A stretch of DNA of 64,000 bases from assembly GCF_900187395.1 (NCBI RefSeq), contig NZ_FYEZ01000003.1, positions 248,001-312,000 on the forward strand. The letters are read 5' to 3'. The translations under genes were made by a program, and so were the position numbers. The first letter of the stretch is position 1; each line of letters begins with the position of its first letter. Source of the stretch: Kytococcus aerolatus. GTDB lineage: Bacteria; Actinomycetota; Actinomycetes; Actinomycetales; Dermatophilaceae. A model generated the notes under the pieces. The model did not search any database. It was not told the origin of the DNA and was given only the letters and a program-made list of their open reading frames with translations. Of this stretch, positions 1 through 52,924 are shown piece by piece.

Positions 1-1
1 T

Positions 2-388
2 GGGTCGGCCCCGGCCGGCGAGTCGGCCTCCACGGCATCTGGGTCCGACGGCGAGGACGAGCCGAAGATGCTCGACTGCCTCGGGGAGGGCTCCCTCGTC
101 CGTCCGGAGACGCTCAACCTGGACTGCCAGAACACGAACGCCACCCTGAGCCACCTGGAGTGGAACGCCTGGGCCGTCCACGGGGCCCGGGGGCGGGGAG
201 AGCTCAGCGTGAACCCCTGCCGGCCCACCTGCGCCGAGGGTCGGGTGGAGAACTACGCGGTGACGGTCGCGGCACCCCACGCGGAGACCTCGGAGTCCGG
301 GGCCCTGTTCACCGAGGTGGAGGTGCGCTTCACGAGCAAGCGCCCGGTCGGCTCCACGAGCCGCGAGGTCTACGAGCTCCCGCAATGA
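2..388 (+). CDS. C-terminal part of a secreted or lipoprotein-like protein (partial)
   Basis: The frame is open from the left window edge, so the true start lies outside. The visible part begins with a Ser/Ala/Gly/Glu/Asp-rich linker (about 22 residues). A compact domain follows with four cysteines (DCLGEG, DCQNT, NPCRPTCAEG) and the motif WNAWAVHGARG before CRPTCAEGRVENYAVTV. This W-W...C-P-x-C-A-E-G pattern is common in small secreted actinobacterial proteins of unknown function. I infer an exported beta-rich domain with disulfides. An internal ATG at 68 exists but would cut the linker. It converges on the histidine kinase gene 42 nt downstream. Confidence 0.6.
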   Translation, partial: GSAPAGESASTASGSDGEDEPKMLDCLGEGSLVRPETLNLDCQNTNATLSHLEWNAWAVHGARGRGELSVNPCRPTCAEGRVENYAVTVAAPHAETSESGALFTEVEVRFTSKRPVGSTSREVYELPQ

Positions 389-430: not shown

Positions 431-1765
431 TCAGAGCGCCTCCTGCAGGCGCAGGACGGTCCGGGCACCCCCGGAGCGCGAGCTGGAGAACTCGACGGTC
501 GCCCCCATCGTCTCGGCCTGCTTGGTGATGATCGTCAGCCCCAGCCCGGTGCCCTTGTGCTCCCCGGTCCCGTGGAAGCGCTGCGGACCGCGGTCCACGA
601 TCTCCGGCGGGTAGCCCGGCCCGTCGTCGTCCACCACCACGGCGCGCCGGACGACGGTCACGACGCACTCGCCCCCACCGTGCCGCTGCACGTTGACCAG
701 CAGGTTGGCCATGATCCGCTCGAAGCGGCGCGGGTCCACGAGCACCCGGGCCGGGGAGTCACCCCGCAGCTCCACCCGGTCGCAGGGCGCGGAGACCGCG
801 AGGAAGCGGACGGTGCGGTCCACCAGGTCGCCCAGTTCGTGCTCCTCGAGCTGCGCCACCTCGGAGCCGCTCTCCAACCGGGAGACCTCCAGGAGGTCCT
901 CCACGAGCCGTCGCAGCCGCCCGATCTGGTTGCGCACCAGGGTGGTGGCCCGCCCGTCGGGGAGCAGCTCGGCGGCACTCACCAGACCGGTCACCGGGGT
1001 GCGCAGCTCGTGCGCCACGTCCGCGGTGAAGGCGCGCTCGGTCTCCAGTCGGCGCTGCAGGGTCGTCGCCATCGAGTCCACCGCCCGGGTGAGGGCGGCC
1101 ACCTCGTCCTGCCCGCCCTGGTGGGTCCGGGCGCTCGGGTCCCCCTCGGCCATCGCAGTCGCGGCCGTGGCAGCGCGGCGCAGCCGGCGGGAGAGGGCGT
1201 TGCCCATCCACCACGAGAGGGCCAGCGAGCCGAGGGCGGCCCCGAGGAAGCCCAGCACGAGGGTGCGGAAGCGCCGGGCGTCCTGCTCGCGGAGCCCGGA
1301 TCCGTCGACCTCCACCGAGAGCATCACATCCCGGCCGAGGCGCTCCGTGGCCCACATGGTCTCGCCGTCGTAGTAGCTGCGCCGCTCCCCGACCTCCATC
1401 CCGGTCACGAGCTCCTGCGGGGGCGCCTGCGGGTCGGTGGTGGCCCCCAGACGCACCCGGCCGTCCAACCGGTAGGAGTCGGCGACCGTCTCGAGCTTGG
1501 TGACCGCCTGCTGCCGCAGGTTCTCCCGCGACTGACGGGCCGCCTGCTCCGAGAGGGAGGCCCCCAGCAGGGTGCTGGTGAGCATCGAGACCAGGAGGAT
1601 CGCCCCCATGATGCGGGTGCGGATGGAGTGCCGCCAGCCCGTGGGCCCGGGACGGTACGCCAGGTGCCCGACGACCCGCATCGGGACGGTGTCGTCCAGC
1701 ACCCCCTCCCCGGTGCGGGCCGCCACCGACCGGCGGGCTCGCCCACCCGCGTCGGTCGCCGTCAC
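431..1765 (-). CDS. Two-component sensor histidine kinase
   Basis: The 444-residue protein has a GTG start that overlaps the regulator stop codon by 4 nt (GTGA), so the pair is co-translated. A first membrane segment lies near residues 50-70, a short extracytoplasmic sensor follows, and a second segment lies near 168-192. A HAMP linker leads to the HisKA dimerisation box (DVAHELRTPVTG, phospho-His near 254). The ATPase carries NLLVNVQRHG (N box), DDDGPGYPPE (G1) and GTGLGLT (G2). It should autophosphorylate in response to an envelope signal and pass the phosphate to the regulator at 1762-2451. The stimulus is not evident. It is CseC/PhoR-like in architecture. Confidence 0.93.
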   Translation of the reverse strand: MTATDAGGRARRSVAARTGEGVLDDTVPMRVVGHLAYRPGPTGWRHSIRTRIMGAILLVSMLTSTLLGASLSEQAARQSRENLRQQAVTKLETVADSYRLDGRVRLGATTDPQAPPQELVTGMEVGERRSYYDGETMWATERLGRDVMLSVEVDGSGLREQDARRFRTLVLGFLGAALGSLALSWWMGNALSRRLRRAATAATAMAEGDPSARTHQGGQDEVAALTRAVDSMATTLQRRLETERAFTADVAHELRTPVTGLVSAAELLPDGRATTLVRNQIGRLRRLVEDLLEVSRLESGSEVAQLEEHELGDLVDRTVRFLAVSAPCDRVELRGDSPARVLVDPRRFERIMANLLVNVQRHGGGECVVTVVRRAVVVDDDGPGYPPEIVDRGPQRFHGTGEHKGTGLGLTIITKQAETMGATVEFSSSRSGGARTVLRLQEAL

Positions 1766-2451
1766 TCGTCCACCAGTTTGTACCCCGCCCCGCGGACGGT
1801 GACGATGCGCTCCGCCCCGATCTTGCGCCGCAGACGCTGGACGGTGACCTCCACGACGTGGGTGTCACCCCAGGCGCCGATGTCCCACACGAGCTCGAGC
1901 AGCTGCGGGCGGGAGAGGACGCGCCCCCGGTGGTCCAGGAGGACCTCCAGGAGGCGGAACTCGGTGGCGCTCAGGGCGACCTCCTCGCCACCCCGGGTGA
2001 CGACCATGCCCTCCGGGTCCACCGCCAGGTCCGCCACCCGGATCGTCGTGGTGTCCGGCTGCTGCGGCCCGGTCTCGGTCCGTCGCAGCAAGGCCCGAAG
2101 CCGGGCGGCCAGGACCTCGCCGTCGAAGGGCTTGGTCACGTAGTCGTCCGCCCCCGCGTGGAAGCCGGCGAGCTGGTCGTGCGGCAGGTCGCGGGCGGTG
2201 AGCAGGATGATCGGCAGGTCGGAGTCCTCCCGCACGCGCCGCGCGAAGGTGATGCCGTCCATGCGGGGCATCATGACGTCGACCACGGCCACGTCGAACT
2301 CCCCCCGGCCGAGCACCTCCAGCCCCTCGACCCCGTCCCCGGCGGTGGACACGGCGAAGCCCTGGCGCTCCAGCACCAGGGCGGTGGTCTCCCGCAGCAT
2401 CTCGTCGTCCTCGACCAGGAGGACGTTCCCCTCAGGCGTGTTCCGACTCAC
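1762..2451 (-). CDS. OmpR/PhoB-family response regulator
   Basis: The protein has 229 residues. The N-terminal receiver shows the acidic pair VEDDE, the phospho-acceptor in VVDVMMPRMDG and the conserved Lys in VTKPFDG. A C-terminal winged helix follows (LSATEFRLLEVLL, TVQRLRRKI, VRGAGYKL). The open frame continues upstream of the real gene. I chose GTG 2451 because the receiver fold starts there and a TACGCT -10-like hexamer lies exactly 7 nt before it. The kinase gene overlaps the stop. The divergent region upstream carries tandem CTGTGAGGAA boxes that this regulator probably binds (inference). Confidence 0.93.
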   Translation of the reverse strand: MSRNTPEGNVLLVEDDEMLRETTALVLERQGFAVSTAGDGVEGLEVLGRGEFDVAVVDVMMPRMDGITFARRVREDSDLPIILLTARDLPHDQLAGFHAGADDYVTKPFDGEVLAARLRALLRRTETGPQQPDTTTIRVADLAVDPEGMVVTRGGEEVALSATEFRLLEVLLDHRGRVLSRPQLLELVWDIGAWGDTHVVEVTVQRLRRKIGAERIVTVRGAGYKLVDE

Positions 2452-2458
2452 AGGCCCC

Positions 2459-2464
2459 AGCGTA
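2459..2464 (-). promoter_or_regulatory. -10 hexamer of a leaderless promoter for the response regulator
   Basis: Read on the minus strand the hexamer is TACGCT, followed by 7 nt and GTG (2451). This is the same -10/start spacing seen before many other genes in the window. No Shine-Dalgarno sequence is present before the GTG. A leaderless mRNA is inferred. Confidence 0.55.
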
Positions 2465-2524: not shown

Positions 2525-2546
2525 CTGTGAGGAAACTGTGAGGAAG
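2525..2546 (+). promoter_or_regulatory. Tandem 11-bp direct repeats, likely response-regulator operator
   Basis: CTGTGAGGAAA (2525-2535) is followed without a gap by CTGTGAGGAAG (2536-2546). A weaker third half, CCGTGAGAGAT, lies near 2556. Direct repeats at about one helical turn are the usual binding pattern of OmpR-family regulators, and the regulator gene is divergent and adjacent. The repeats lie just upstream of a weak -35 and a CATAGT -10 (2575-2580) on the plus strand, a layout expected for activation. Confidence 0.6.
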
Positions 2547-2574
2547 GCGTGCGGACCGTGAGAGATCGGGGGCC

Positions 2575-2725
2575 CATAGTGGAGTCATCGCAGCGAGGGA
2601 CACGCTGCGATGACATGACCCGGACGAGCCGTGGAGGGATCGACCGGAACACATGAGCCGCACCGCGGCACCTGGAGAGACAGGGAGTCACCGTACTGAG
2701 GGGTCCGGTGGCTCCCTTCTTTTCT
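2575..2725 (+). ncRNA. Candidate structured small RNA or attenuator leader
   Basis: A CATAGT -10-like hexamer is followed by a perfect 12-bp hairpin (GTCATCGCAGCG 2584-2595 with 2603-2614, 7-nt loop). A middle section contains GCCGC/GCGGC pairing near 2658-2668. The segment ends in an intrinsic terminator at 2683-2725. The element is about 145 nt and lies between the divergent two-component genes and the DUF6394/K+ channel pair. It could be a free small RNA or a leader whose terminator gates the channel operon. I do not recognise it as a named riboswitch class. A short open frame from ATG 2653 runs through it but looks non-coding. Confidence 0.45.
2683..2725 (+). terminator. Intrinsic terminator in the DUF6394 leader region
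   Basis: GGGAGTCACCG (2683-2693) pairs with CGGTGGCTCCC (2706-2716) through 11 bp with one G-U pair. The run TTCTTTTCT follows directly. It is the only hairpin in the window with a clear T-rich tail. It ends about 32 nt before the DUF6394 start. Confidence 0.75.
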
Positions 2726-2757
2726 GTCCCGTCCCGGCCCGCCGTATGGTCGACCCC

Positions 2758-3144
2758 GTGAACTTCGAGAAGGTCGTCTTCGGTTTCTTCGTCCTCCTGG
2801 CCGCCACCATGAACTTCGGCTACGTCCTGGGGGACATCGGCGACCCGGCCATGCACAACTCCTACGAGCTCTACGTGGCGGTGCTGGTCAACGTGGTGGC
2901 GGCCGTCCTGAAGCTCGGGGACCGCACGCACGTGGGCGCCGTCCACCTCGCGGCCAGCCTCGTGGCCTGTCTGCAGCTCGGCGCCGCCTCGGTGATGTGG
3001 GTGCTCATCGAGCAGACCGGTGACGCCGCCCCGTCCACGCACGAGATGGCCTCCGTGGTGTCCGTGGCCGCCGGTGCCCTGTTGGCCAATCTCGTCTCCC
3101 TGGTGATCCTGGTGGTCGAGACCGTCAACTACCGCGGGCGCTGA
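2758..3144 (+). CDS. DUF6394-family integral membrane protein
   Basis: The 128-residue protein has about four hydrophobic segments: VFGFFVLLAATMNFGYVL, a loop ending in YELYVAVLVNVVAAVLKLGDRT, HLAASLVACLQLGAASVMW, and a last segment before ETVNYRGR. The NFEKVxFGFFVLLA...NFGYVLGDI pattern fits the DUF6394 family as I know it. GTG 2758 is chosen because homologous proteins begin at this point and TATGGT (2745-2750) lies 7 nt upstream. ATG 2746 is in frame but overlaps that hexamer. It sits 12 nt before a K+ channel gene, so an accessory role in the channel is plausible but unproven. Confidence 0.8.
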   Translation: MNFEKVVFGFFVLLAATMNFGYVLGDIGDPAMHNSYELYVAVLVNVVAAVLKLGDRTHVGAVHLAASLVACLQLGAASVMWVLIEQTGDAAPSTHEMASVVSVAAGALLANLVSLVILVVETVNYRGR

Positions 3145-3156
3145 GCCGGGGCCCAC

Positions 3157-4935
3157 GTGGTCAACCCGCTCACCCGACTCGCCGCCCACCACCGGGCCTA
3201 CCGCATCGACTCCCAGCGGCGCCGCAAGGTGCCCGTGCCGGTCGACGACAGCTCGCTCGACGTCCTCCAGCTGGCCCTGCGCCGCATGCGCGGGCCGATC
3301 CTGCTGGTGATCGCCGTCTTCGCCATCTCCGTGGTCGGCCTCTCGCTCATGCCCGGGCTGGACGAGGACGGCCAGCCGTACCGGATGACGATCTTCGACT
3401 CGCTGTACTTCATGTCGTACACGGCCACGACGATCGGCTTCGGCGAGACCCCGTACACCTTCACCATCCCCCAGCGGCTCTGGGTCACCGGCTCGATCTT
3501 CGCCTCGGTGGCCGCCTGGAGCTACGCCCTGACCGCCCTCATCAGCCAGATCACCGCCCCCGGTTTCCGGAAGGCCATGAGCGTGCTGCGCGTGAAGCGG
3601 AAGCTCCACCGCACCCGGGAGCCCTTCTACATCGTGGTAGGAAACGGGCAGACCGGGAACGCCGTGGTCGACGGGCTGGTGGCGATCCACCGGGACGCCG
3701 TGGTGGTCGACCGCGACGTCGAGCGCCTGGAGCGCCTCACCATGGGGTCGGCCAGCGGTTCCGTGCTCGGTCTCCACGCCGACGCCCGACGCGCCGCCTC
3801 CCTGGGGACGGCCGGGTTGGGGAGCCCGCACTGCCACGGCGTCCTGGCCATGACGAACGACGACGAGACGAACCTGTCGATCGTCATGACCGTGAACCTC
3901 CTGCGTCCGGACGTCCCGGTCATCGCCCGGGCGCAGAGCATGGCCATGGCCGAGCGGATGCAGGACTTCTACCCCGAGCACGTGGTCAACCCGATGGACG
4001 AGTTCGGGAGCTACCTGGCGCTGCGGCTGGAGCAGCCGGTCACGCACCGTCTCACCGAGTGGCTCATGAGCCCTCCGGGCACGGAGCTGGAGGAGGCGGT
4101 GTCCGGGCTGGCCGGCGGCCGCTGGGTGGTGGTGAGCGACGGGGAGTTCGGCGAGGAGGTGGCCCGCGACCTGCGCCGGATCGGCCTGGAGGCCGAGCTC
4201 GCCCCGCCCACCGGGGCGACGGTGGACGTCTCCGAGGCGACCGGGGTGGTCGTCGGGGCCGAGAGCGACACCGTGAACATGTCGGTCGCCGCCCGGGTGC
4301 GGGCGGCGAACCCGGACTGCTTCCTGGTGCTGCGGCAGAAGTCCCTGACCGCGGCCGCCACGGTGCGGGCCTTCGCCCCGGACCTCGTCTTCCACCCGGC
4401 CGAGCTGGTGGCCCACGAGGCGATGACCTATCTCGTGAGCCCGAACTACTGGCACTTCGTCCGCAAGGTCATGGAGCGGGACGACGACTGGGCCGCCGAG
4501 GAGACGGAGCGGATCGTGGAGCGCGTGGGGACGGGCACCCCGGAGGCGGCACGCCTGAGCGTGACGGAGGAGCGGGCCCCGGCCCTCACCCGCTGGCTGG
4601 CCGCCGGCACGGTGACCCTGGGGCAGCTGCTGACCCACCCCGAGAGCGGCGAGTGCCGACAGGTCTACGCCGCCGTCCACGCCCGCGGGAGCCAGCGCAC
4701 GGTCTCCCCCGGTGACGACCTGCAGCTCCGGGTCGGGGACACGCTCATGGTGCTCGGGACCCCCGCCGGGCTCGACGGGCTCACCGCCACGCTCTACGAC
4801 GACTCGGCGGTGGAGCACCTCGCCACCGGTGTGCACGTCCCCCGGACCTGGGTCTTCCGGCTGTTCAGCCACCGGGCCGTGCGGCGGGCGCACCGGCGAC
4901 GGCGGGCGGCACGGGCCGGGCGCGCGGCCCGCTGA
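3157..4935 (+). CDS. Two-TM potassium channel protein with RCK/TrkA domains
   Basis: The protein has 592 residues. A first membrane helix lies near 45-65 (PILLVIAVFAISVVGLSLM). A pore loop with selectivity filter TTIGFGETPY follows, then a second helix (LWVTGSIFASVAAWSYALTA). The Rossmann-like RCK domain begins at FYIVVGNGQTGNAVVDG. A second RCK-like unit starts at RWVVVSDGEFGEEVARDL, and a TrkA-C-like tail ends with LRVGDTLMVLGTP. It should be a ligand-gated K+ channel or efflux protein of the inner membrane. It starts with GTG just after DUF6394 and probably forms an operon with it. Confidence 0.9.
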   Translation: MVNPLTRLAAHHRAYRIDSQRRRKVPVPVDDSSLDVLQLALRRMRGPILLVIAVFAISVVGLSLMPGLDEDGQPYRMTIFDSLYFMSYTATTIGFGETPYTFTIPQRLWVTGSIFASVAAWSYALTALISQITAPGFRKAMSVLRVKRKLHRTREPFYIVVGNGQTGNAVVDGLVAIHRDAVVVDRDVERLERLTMGSASGSVLGLHADARRAASLGTAGLGSPHCHGVLAMTNDDETNLSIVMTVNLLRPDVPVIARAQSMAMAERMQDFYPEHVVNPMDEFGSYLALRLEQPVTHRLTEWLMSPPGTELEEAVSGLAGGRWVVVSDGEFGEEVARDLRRIGLEAELAPPTGATVDVSEATGVVVGAESDTVNMSVAARVRAANPDCFLVLRQKSLTAAATVRAFAPDLVFHPAELVAHEAMTYLVSPNYWHFVRKVMERDDDWAAEETERIVERVGTGTPEAARLSVTEERAPALTRWLAAGTVTLGQLLTHPESGECRQVYAAVHARGSQRTVSPGDDLQLRVGDTLMVLGTPAGLDGLTATLYDDSAVEHLATGVHVPRTWVFRLFSHRAVRRAHRRRRAARAGRAAR

Positions 4936-5500: not shown

Positions 5501-5563
5501 GACGGGACGCTACCGCCCGTGCCCTCCGCACGTCTTCGCTGTCACCCGCCCGCCCACTGCCGG

Positions 5564-5633
5564 ACGACCATCACCTCTCGCGCACGAGCGTCACCGATTC
5601 CGGTGATGGCCGTGCGTGAGAGGTGATGGTCGT
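5564..5633. repeat. Intergenic palindromic repeat, family A copy 1 (70 nt)
   Basis: The outer arms are 5564-5586 and 5611-5633 (22 of 23 positions complementary). Nested inside is a second stem, TCACCG/CGGTGA (5591-5596 and 5601-5606). It aligns end to end without gaps to the element at 21702-21771 at roughly 70% identity, with both the outer and inner stems conserved. It lies between the acetyltransferase start and the oxyR stop. Confidence 0.75.
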
Positions 5634-5670
5634 CGTGGAAAGGGTTGCGAGGAGGGCGGCAGCGGGCCCT

Positions 5671-33416: not shown

Positions 33417-33458
33417 GGTCGACCGTTCCGCTGGCACGTGCCTGCGGAACGGTCGACC
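33417..33458. repeat. 42-nt nested palindrome in the convergent intergenic region
   Basis: GGTCGACCGTTCCGC (33417-33431) pairs perfectly with 33444-33458. The 12-nt centre holds its own palindrome GGCACGTGCC (33433-33442), so nearly all 42 nt are self-complementary. TATCAGGTGAT (33405-33415) and TATCAGGCGAT (33459-33469) flank it as direct repeats. It may be a bidirectional terminator or a small repeat element. The rest of 33288-33568 holds nothing coding. Confidence 0.7.
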
Positions 33459-52881: not shown

Positions 52882-52924
52882 GCGACGGAGGCCGGAACCA
52901 CCTCGTGGTTCCGGCCTCCGTCGC
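52882..52924. terminator. Bidirectional terminator with a perfect 20-bp stem
   Basis: GCGACGGAGGCCGGAACCAC (52882-52901) pairs with 52905-52924 around a CTC loop without mismatch. It lies between convergent genes (LapA-like and the Tad operon). It lacks a T-run but is the longest uninterrupted stem in the window. Confidence 0.85.

Follow-up and report, generated by a model that had tools for sequence, protein, structure and literature searches.

Positions 2525 to 2725 of the stretch of Kytococcus aerolatus DNA analysed here (64 kb, called the window, within a genome of 2.40 Mb) are read, with a confidence of about two in three, as the locus of a free small RNA (sRNA) of ~130-140 nt. This RNA would be transcribed divergently from a CseBC-like two-component system, and activated by that system through a common operator.

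Strong evidence from sequence comparison, drawn from two genomes, indicates that the element is a selected RNA structure with a fixed promoter. The first-pass annotation had proposed a short structured RNA under two-component control. Here, the RNA gene is well supported; the control is plausible, given an operator that is shared and conserved and that keeps a fixed spacing to the -10 hexamer. The host, Kytococcus, is a skin-associated actinobacterium.

The two-component system and its presumed operator

The two-component system lies on the minus strand. Its sensor histidine kinase gene (431..1765) is CseC-like as judged by NCBIfam family scores, and its OmpR-family response regulator gene (1762..2451), divergent from the RNA, is CseB-like. 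The best NCBIfam families are CseB for the regulator (274 of 350 bits) and CseC for the kinase (264 of 700 bits), both below the curated cut-offs. These two are the only genes in the operon on that strand, and neither sigE nor cseA is found with them. CseBC of Streptomyces responds to envelope stress and seems to have the sigE promoter as its only target (PMC6767563).

Convergent with the kinase gene is a lipoprotein gene (window 1-388; locus L241, 649-1212), which is kept in both Kytococcus species compared and adjoins the gene of a large OmpA-like protein. Its product may be a partner of the sensor system in the envelope.

The regulator gene starts with a GTG at 2451, and a -10 hexamer, TACGCT (2459..2464, minus strand), stands 7 nt before it. 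The hexamer in Kytococcus sedentarius is TACTCT, with the same gap of 7 nt. This promoter is of the same kind, the leaderless type, as that of the DUF6394 gene on the other side of the element.

The tandem 11-bp boxes of the first-pass annotation are present on the plus strand at 2525..2546. They read CTGTGAGGAAA CTGTGAGGAAG, in 11-bp phase, and are presumed to be sites of the response regulator. A degenerate third box, GCGTGCGGACC (2547-2557), follows in phase, and a fourth half-site, CGTGAG (2557-2562), lies 9 bp on, so that the array (2547..2562) extends over the -35 region of the RNA promoter. The corresponding pair in K. sedentarius is TTGTGAGGGTC CTGTGAGGGAG, and in the region of the third and fourth boxes GGCGTGCG and GTGAGA are invariant across the two species.

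The promoter itself is weak, as had been claimed. Its -10-like hexamer is CATAGT (2575..2580, plus strand; TTGAAT in K. sedentarius), with no -35 element, and a promoter scan found no consensus sigma-70 promoter. Because the hexamer occupies 2575-2580, the 5' end of the RNA is predicted nearer to 2586-2588 than to 2581, the position given earlier. The distance from first box to -10 hexamer is 49 nt in both Kytococcus species, and that from the -10 hexamer to a conserved ATCG is exactly 12 nt in both. As far as sequence can tell, a presumed direct-repeat site for the regulator stands at an activating distance from the -10 hexamer.

The nearest solved structure to the regulator is PhoP of Mycobacterium tuberculosis, which recognises direct repeats of the 7-bp TCACAGC separated by 4 bp (PMC4832192). 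Read on their other strand, the Kytococcus boxes give TCACAGTTTCCTCACAG. In the recognition helix of PhoP, two of the six base-contacting residues are kept in the regulator (Val213 and Glu215), so the likeness of the boxes to PhoP sites is a lead only, and binding is not established by it.

Boxes that lie between two divergent promoters could, of course, act on one side. The sRNA would then be real, with the boxes serving only to autoregulate the regulator gene, and the RNA would be constitutive or controlled in some other way. We regard this as unlikely, for it is the distance from the boxes to the RNA's -10 hexamer that is fixed, while the distance to the regulator's own -10 differs between the two species. 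Further, the extra half-sites are found on the RNA side, over a -35 region that has no -35 element.

Elsewhere, the exact double box TGTGAGGN4TGTGAGG has two copies per genome in both Kytococcus species. At up to two mismatches there are 11 copies in the window genome and 18 in K. sedentarius, against 5 and 6 in the same two genomes for a control, the pattern read backwards at the same tolerance. Several of the copies precede genes whose products are lipoproteins or secreted (L151, L152, L155, L160/L162, L164, L175). These positions would fit an envelope regulon.

The only other exact double box, with further GTGAG half-sites, belongs to an intergenic region that is part of a nearly identical segment in the two species (L147 in the window genome, L150 in K. 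sedentarius), together with methionine-synthase-like and MTA/SAH nucleosidase-like genes.

The RNA and its counterpart in Kytococcus sedentarius

The structured part of the element, on the plus strand, begins with the perfect 12-bp hairpin that had been reported (hairpin 1, 2584..2614; arms 2584-2595/2603-2614), whose loop is AGGGACA (2596-2602). A weak second hairpin (2620..2647) presents UGGAGGGA (2632-2639). The element ends in an intrinsic terminator (2683..2725) with stem 2683-2693/2706-2716, a 12-nt loop UACUGAGGGGUC (2694-2705) and the T-rich tail TTCTTTTCT (2717-2725). Its -26.9 kcal/mol is unmatched by any other T-tailed hairpin of the 64-kb window, which bears out the earlier remark that the terminator is unusually good. 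The loops of the RNA are rich in G: AGGGA occurs in them three times and GAGGGG a single time. The RNA thus appears to have its own terminator, with no coding region downstream in the transcript.

For 2580-2725 the folding energy is -78.1 kcal/mol, compared with -52.6 kcal/mol in shuffled sequences (z = -6.1); the counterpart in K. sedentarius gives z = -3.7. Long perfect hairpins are, however, not rare in the window, where ten others of at least 11 bp are found against about one in shuffles. Proof of a structured RNA therefore rests on the comparison with K. sedentarius, and not on the hairpin alone.

These ten hairpins, with stems of 11-20 bp (52882-52924, 33417-33458 and others in the window), are about ten times as frequent as in shuffled sequence. 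They are probably terminators of the type without a T run. The window also holds an imperfect inverted repeat near a gene end (5557-5641, CCATCACCTCTCGCGCACGAGCGTCACCGATTCCGGTGATGGCCGTGCGTGAGAGGTGATGGTCG), for which Rfam gave chance miRNA matches only.

In K. sedentarius the same element occupies the same intergenic place, with the same gene order. This is the sole congener compared, so the test of conservation concerns two species. In a hairpin alignment made by covariance model, the arms of hairpin 1 change from TCGCAGCG/CGCTGCGA in the window to CGAGAACG/CGTTCTCG in K. sedentarius. Five of the eight inner pairs are altered on both sides, and all of them are still paired; the AGGGACA loop and the pairs that close it are unchanged. 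The tool itself counts six compensatory pairs, one of which, an outer pair, results from the way the fit accommodates a gap. In slid controls the number of such pairs is between zero and two.

The terminator stem differs by one change, G-U to G-C, and its 12-nt loop is identical in the two species; UGGAGGGA, between the hairpins, is invariant. Outside the conserved parts the element has drifted and changed in length, and the RNA locus as a whole is about 74% identical. Compensatory changes in the stem, invariant loops and fixed spacings together imply that, across these two species, an RNA structure has been selected. Conservation of the hairpins in relatives, on which the first-pass annotation had staked its proposal, holds for this one congener and does not extend to other genera.

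Proposed mode of action, target search and range

We infer that the RNA is transcribed, that the response regulator activates it, that it base-pairs in trans and that its targets belong to the envelope. The RNA gene would span about 2587 to about 2722; the predicted RNA of K. sedentarius is somewhat shorter, at about 120 nt. Dimers of the phosphorylated regulator would occupy the tandem boxes and bring RNA polymerase to a promoter that lacks a -35 element, so that one operator would drive both the RNA and the regulator's own mRNA. The RNA would begin with a stable 5' hairpin, end in a strong terminator and present G-rich loops (AGGGACA, UGGAGGGA and UACUGAGGGGUC), the sequences of which are kept while the first stem drifts. 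These loops would most likely pair in trans with C-rich stretches of mRNAs, plausibly those of envelope or secretion genes. The sRNA would then be the RNA arm of the signalling system.

Other kinds of action can be imagined for such an RNA. The repeated AGGGA recalls CsrB-type RNAs with their GGA loops, which suggests a decoy that binds a protein. Likewise, a GGAGGG resembles a ribosome-binding site, with an ATG following at 8 nt in K. sedentarius and at 14 nt in the window, which suggests a dual-function RNA with a small open reading frame. We hold either to be quite improbable. A sponge of the CsrB/RsmY type was rejected because CsrA/RsmA is absent from both Kytococcus genomes, while control genomes were positive in the same search. 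A conserved small open reading frame was likewise rejected; the two possible peptides are wholly different, and indels break any common frame. With neither CsrA nor a conserved small open reading frame, base pairing with C-rich mRNA is the likeliest action.

A more specific version of the base-pairing proposal can be put forward tentatively, and with less confidence than would be needed to prefer it. Here, the main local output of a CseBC-type envelope-stress system would be not a sigma factor but an sRNA with G-rich loops, acting in trans without CsrA; this new Kytococcus family would serve the stress response as its RNA arm.

A search for targets named none. Stretches perfectly complementary to the loops occur no more often than control sequences, in a search that would miss short seeds. 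Outside the RNA gene, no loop complement is credible as a pairing site conserved between the two species. The other shared complement site sits in the argH region, which is 99.5% identical between the species and thus uninformative.

That near-identity runs over 3 kb (L228 in the window genome and L221 in K. sedentarius, 3009 bp each) and would point to a recent exchange, with contamination of an assembly as a possible alternative. Another AGGGACA hairpin, ahead of a K. sedentarius lipoprotein gene (L239), was set aside as being at chance level among 28 other sites.

The RNA appears to be restricted in range. Orthologues of the regulator in genera g7, g57 and g14 share 61-71% identity with it, and the RNA is absent upstream of these nearest orthologues. 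A covariance-model search through the family (188 genomes) and the order (396 genomes), run with filters that lose weak matches, gave strong scores at the two Kytococcus loci only. Weak matches (E 6e-4 to 0.05 per genome) have different surroundings and were rejected, and viral contigs gave no match. Within the collections searched, then, the RNA looks to be specific to Kytococcus, and either young or fast-evolving. No Rfam sRNA family (6C and others) matched by covariance model. The RNA is thus a new family, absent from Rfam, in a kind of system that is already known.

One hairpin from another genus carries the Kytococcus terminator loop. In genus g74, the 3'-end hairpin GGCTGCCGCCG-CACTGAGGGGTC-CGGCGGCAGCC is conserved in four species, apparently at a single site (at about 1501-1534 in L178, L180 and L182, and at about 1585-1620 in L181). 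As a possible relative it was rejected, since the pattern of its loop CACTGAGGGGTC, at no more than one mismatch, is no commoner than a control in the order. A rough calculation by hand suggests that chance alone would give about one exact match in the family, and the hairpin is therefore not counted; the likeness is probably accidental.

The neighbouring operon and related systems

Downstream, on the plus strand and outside the RNA, lie genes for a DUF6394 membrane protein (2758..3144; PF19931) and for an ion channel with a TrkA-N domain (3157..4935; PF07885, PF02254). The DUF6394 gene starts GTGAAC, and a -10 hexamer, TATGGT (2745..2750), stands 3' of the terminator and 7 nt before the GTG (6 nt in K. 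sedentarius). In 25 of 31 DUF6394 genes, from Kytococcus, K. sedentarius included, and five other genera, a TANNNT motif starts 12-13 nt before the start codon; most of these are from one genus, which makes for fewer independent cases. At no other offset does the motif occur in comparable number. Judged from sequence, this conserved promoter makes it very probable that transcription of the operon begins separately, past the terminator, and gives a leaderless mRNA.

Many genera of the family retain the DUF6394 gene and the channel gene, along with the conserved leaderless-type promoter (loci L007-L036). In the loci that were read from other genera, the RNA was not seen upstream of DUF6394, where other genes stand instead.

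The first-pass annotation had also considered an attenuator or ligand-sensing leader of the potassium channel operon. The element does immediately precede the operon, in the same orientation, and has at its end a terminator that a ligand or translation might open. Such a cis-acting leader is nonetheless very improbable, and this part of the proposal is abandoned. The operon has its own promoter 3' of the terminator, kept in Kytococcus as well as in genera that lack the RNA there, and it does not appear to be transcribed through the element. The gap between terminator and start varies in length and sequence between the two species. No conserved anti-terminator partner was seen, and both folds leave no base of the terminator stem unpaired. 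Rfam covariance models gave only chance matches to the element, below gathering scores, and hence neither ydaO, whose consensus the first reading had not seen either, nor any other riboswitch. The link of the RNA to potassium is adjacency only.

Hardly credible at all is an operator with a strong terminator that insulates the channel operon and makes no functional RNA, for common as strong hairpins are in the window, hairpin 1 lies too far from the terminator, its compensatory changes surround an invariant loop, and a plain terminator need not keep the sequence of its loop.

An sRNA under two-component control has, of course, precedents. Mcr7 is a PhoP-dependent non-coding RNA of Mycobacterium tuberculosis (PMC4038636), and like the Kytococcus RNA as proposed it is an actinobacterial sRNA of restricted range with an OmpR-family regulator on direct repeats in 11-bp phase. 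Mcr7, however, is about 350 nt long, lies apart from phoPR and acts on tatC; the likeness is one of setting.

RNAIII of the Staphylococcus aureus agr system is about 500 nt long and encodes a peptide. It is transcribed divergently from the agr operon, whose two-component system activates it (PMC3861533), just as the Kytococcus RNA is divergent from the operon of its presumed activator. Unlike the Kytococcus regulator, AgrA is of the LytTR type, and the two RNAs have no sequence relation.

The csRNAs of streptococcal CiaR have a direct repeat upstream, TTTAAG-N5-TTTAAG with an 11-bp period, and a terminator downstream, in intergenic regions (PMC8186281, PMC3091779). They resemble the Kytococcus RNA in being short and in the order of box and terminator. 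They differ in that there are several per genome, with another regulator and another box, whereas a single copy of the Kytococcus RNA was found. The CseBC-sigE system of Streptomyces (PMC6767563), which signals envelope stress, is the closest of the named families to regulator and kinase alike, but the Kytococcus operon is without a sigE gene and its scores fall below the curated cut-offs.

It is seldom that an actinobacterial sRNA has a regulator that is known or a mechanism that can be tested. Here, about 300 bp bring together regulator, operator, promoter, RNA and terminator, and the conserved downstream promoter is what tells an sRNA gene from the supposed riboswitch. Because K. sedentarius has the same element and a cultured type strain, both the control and the function of the RNA can be tested.
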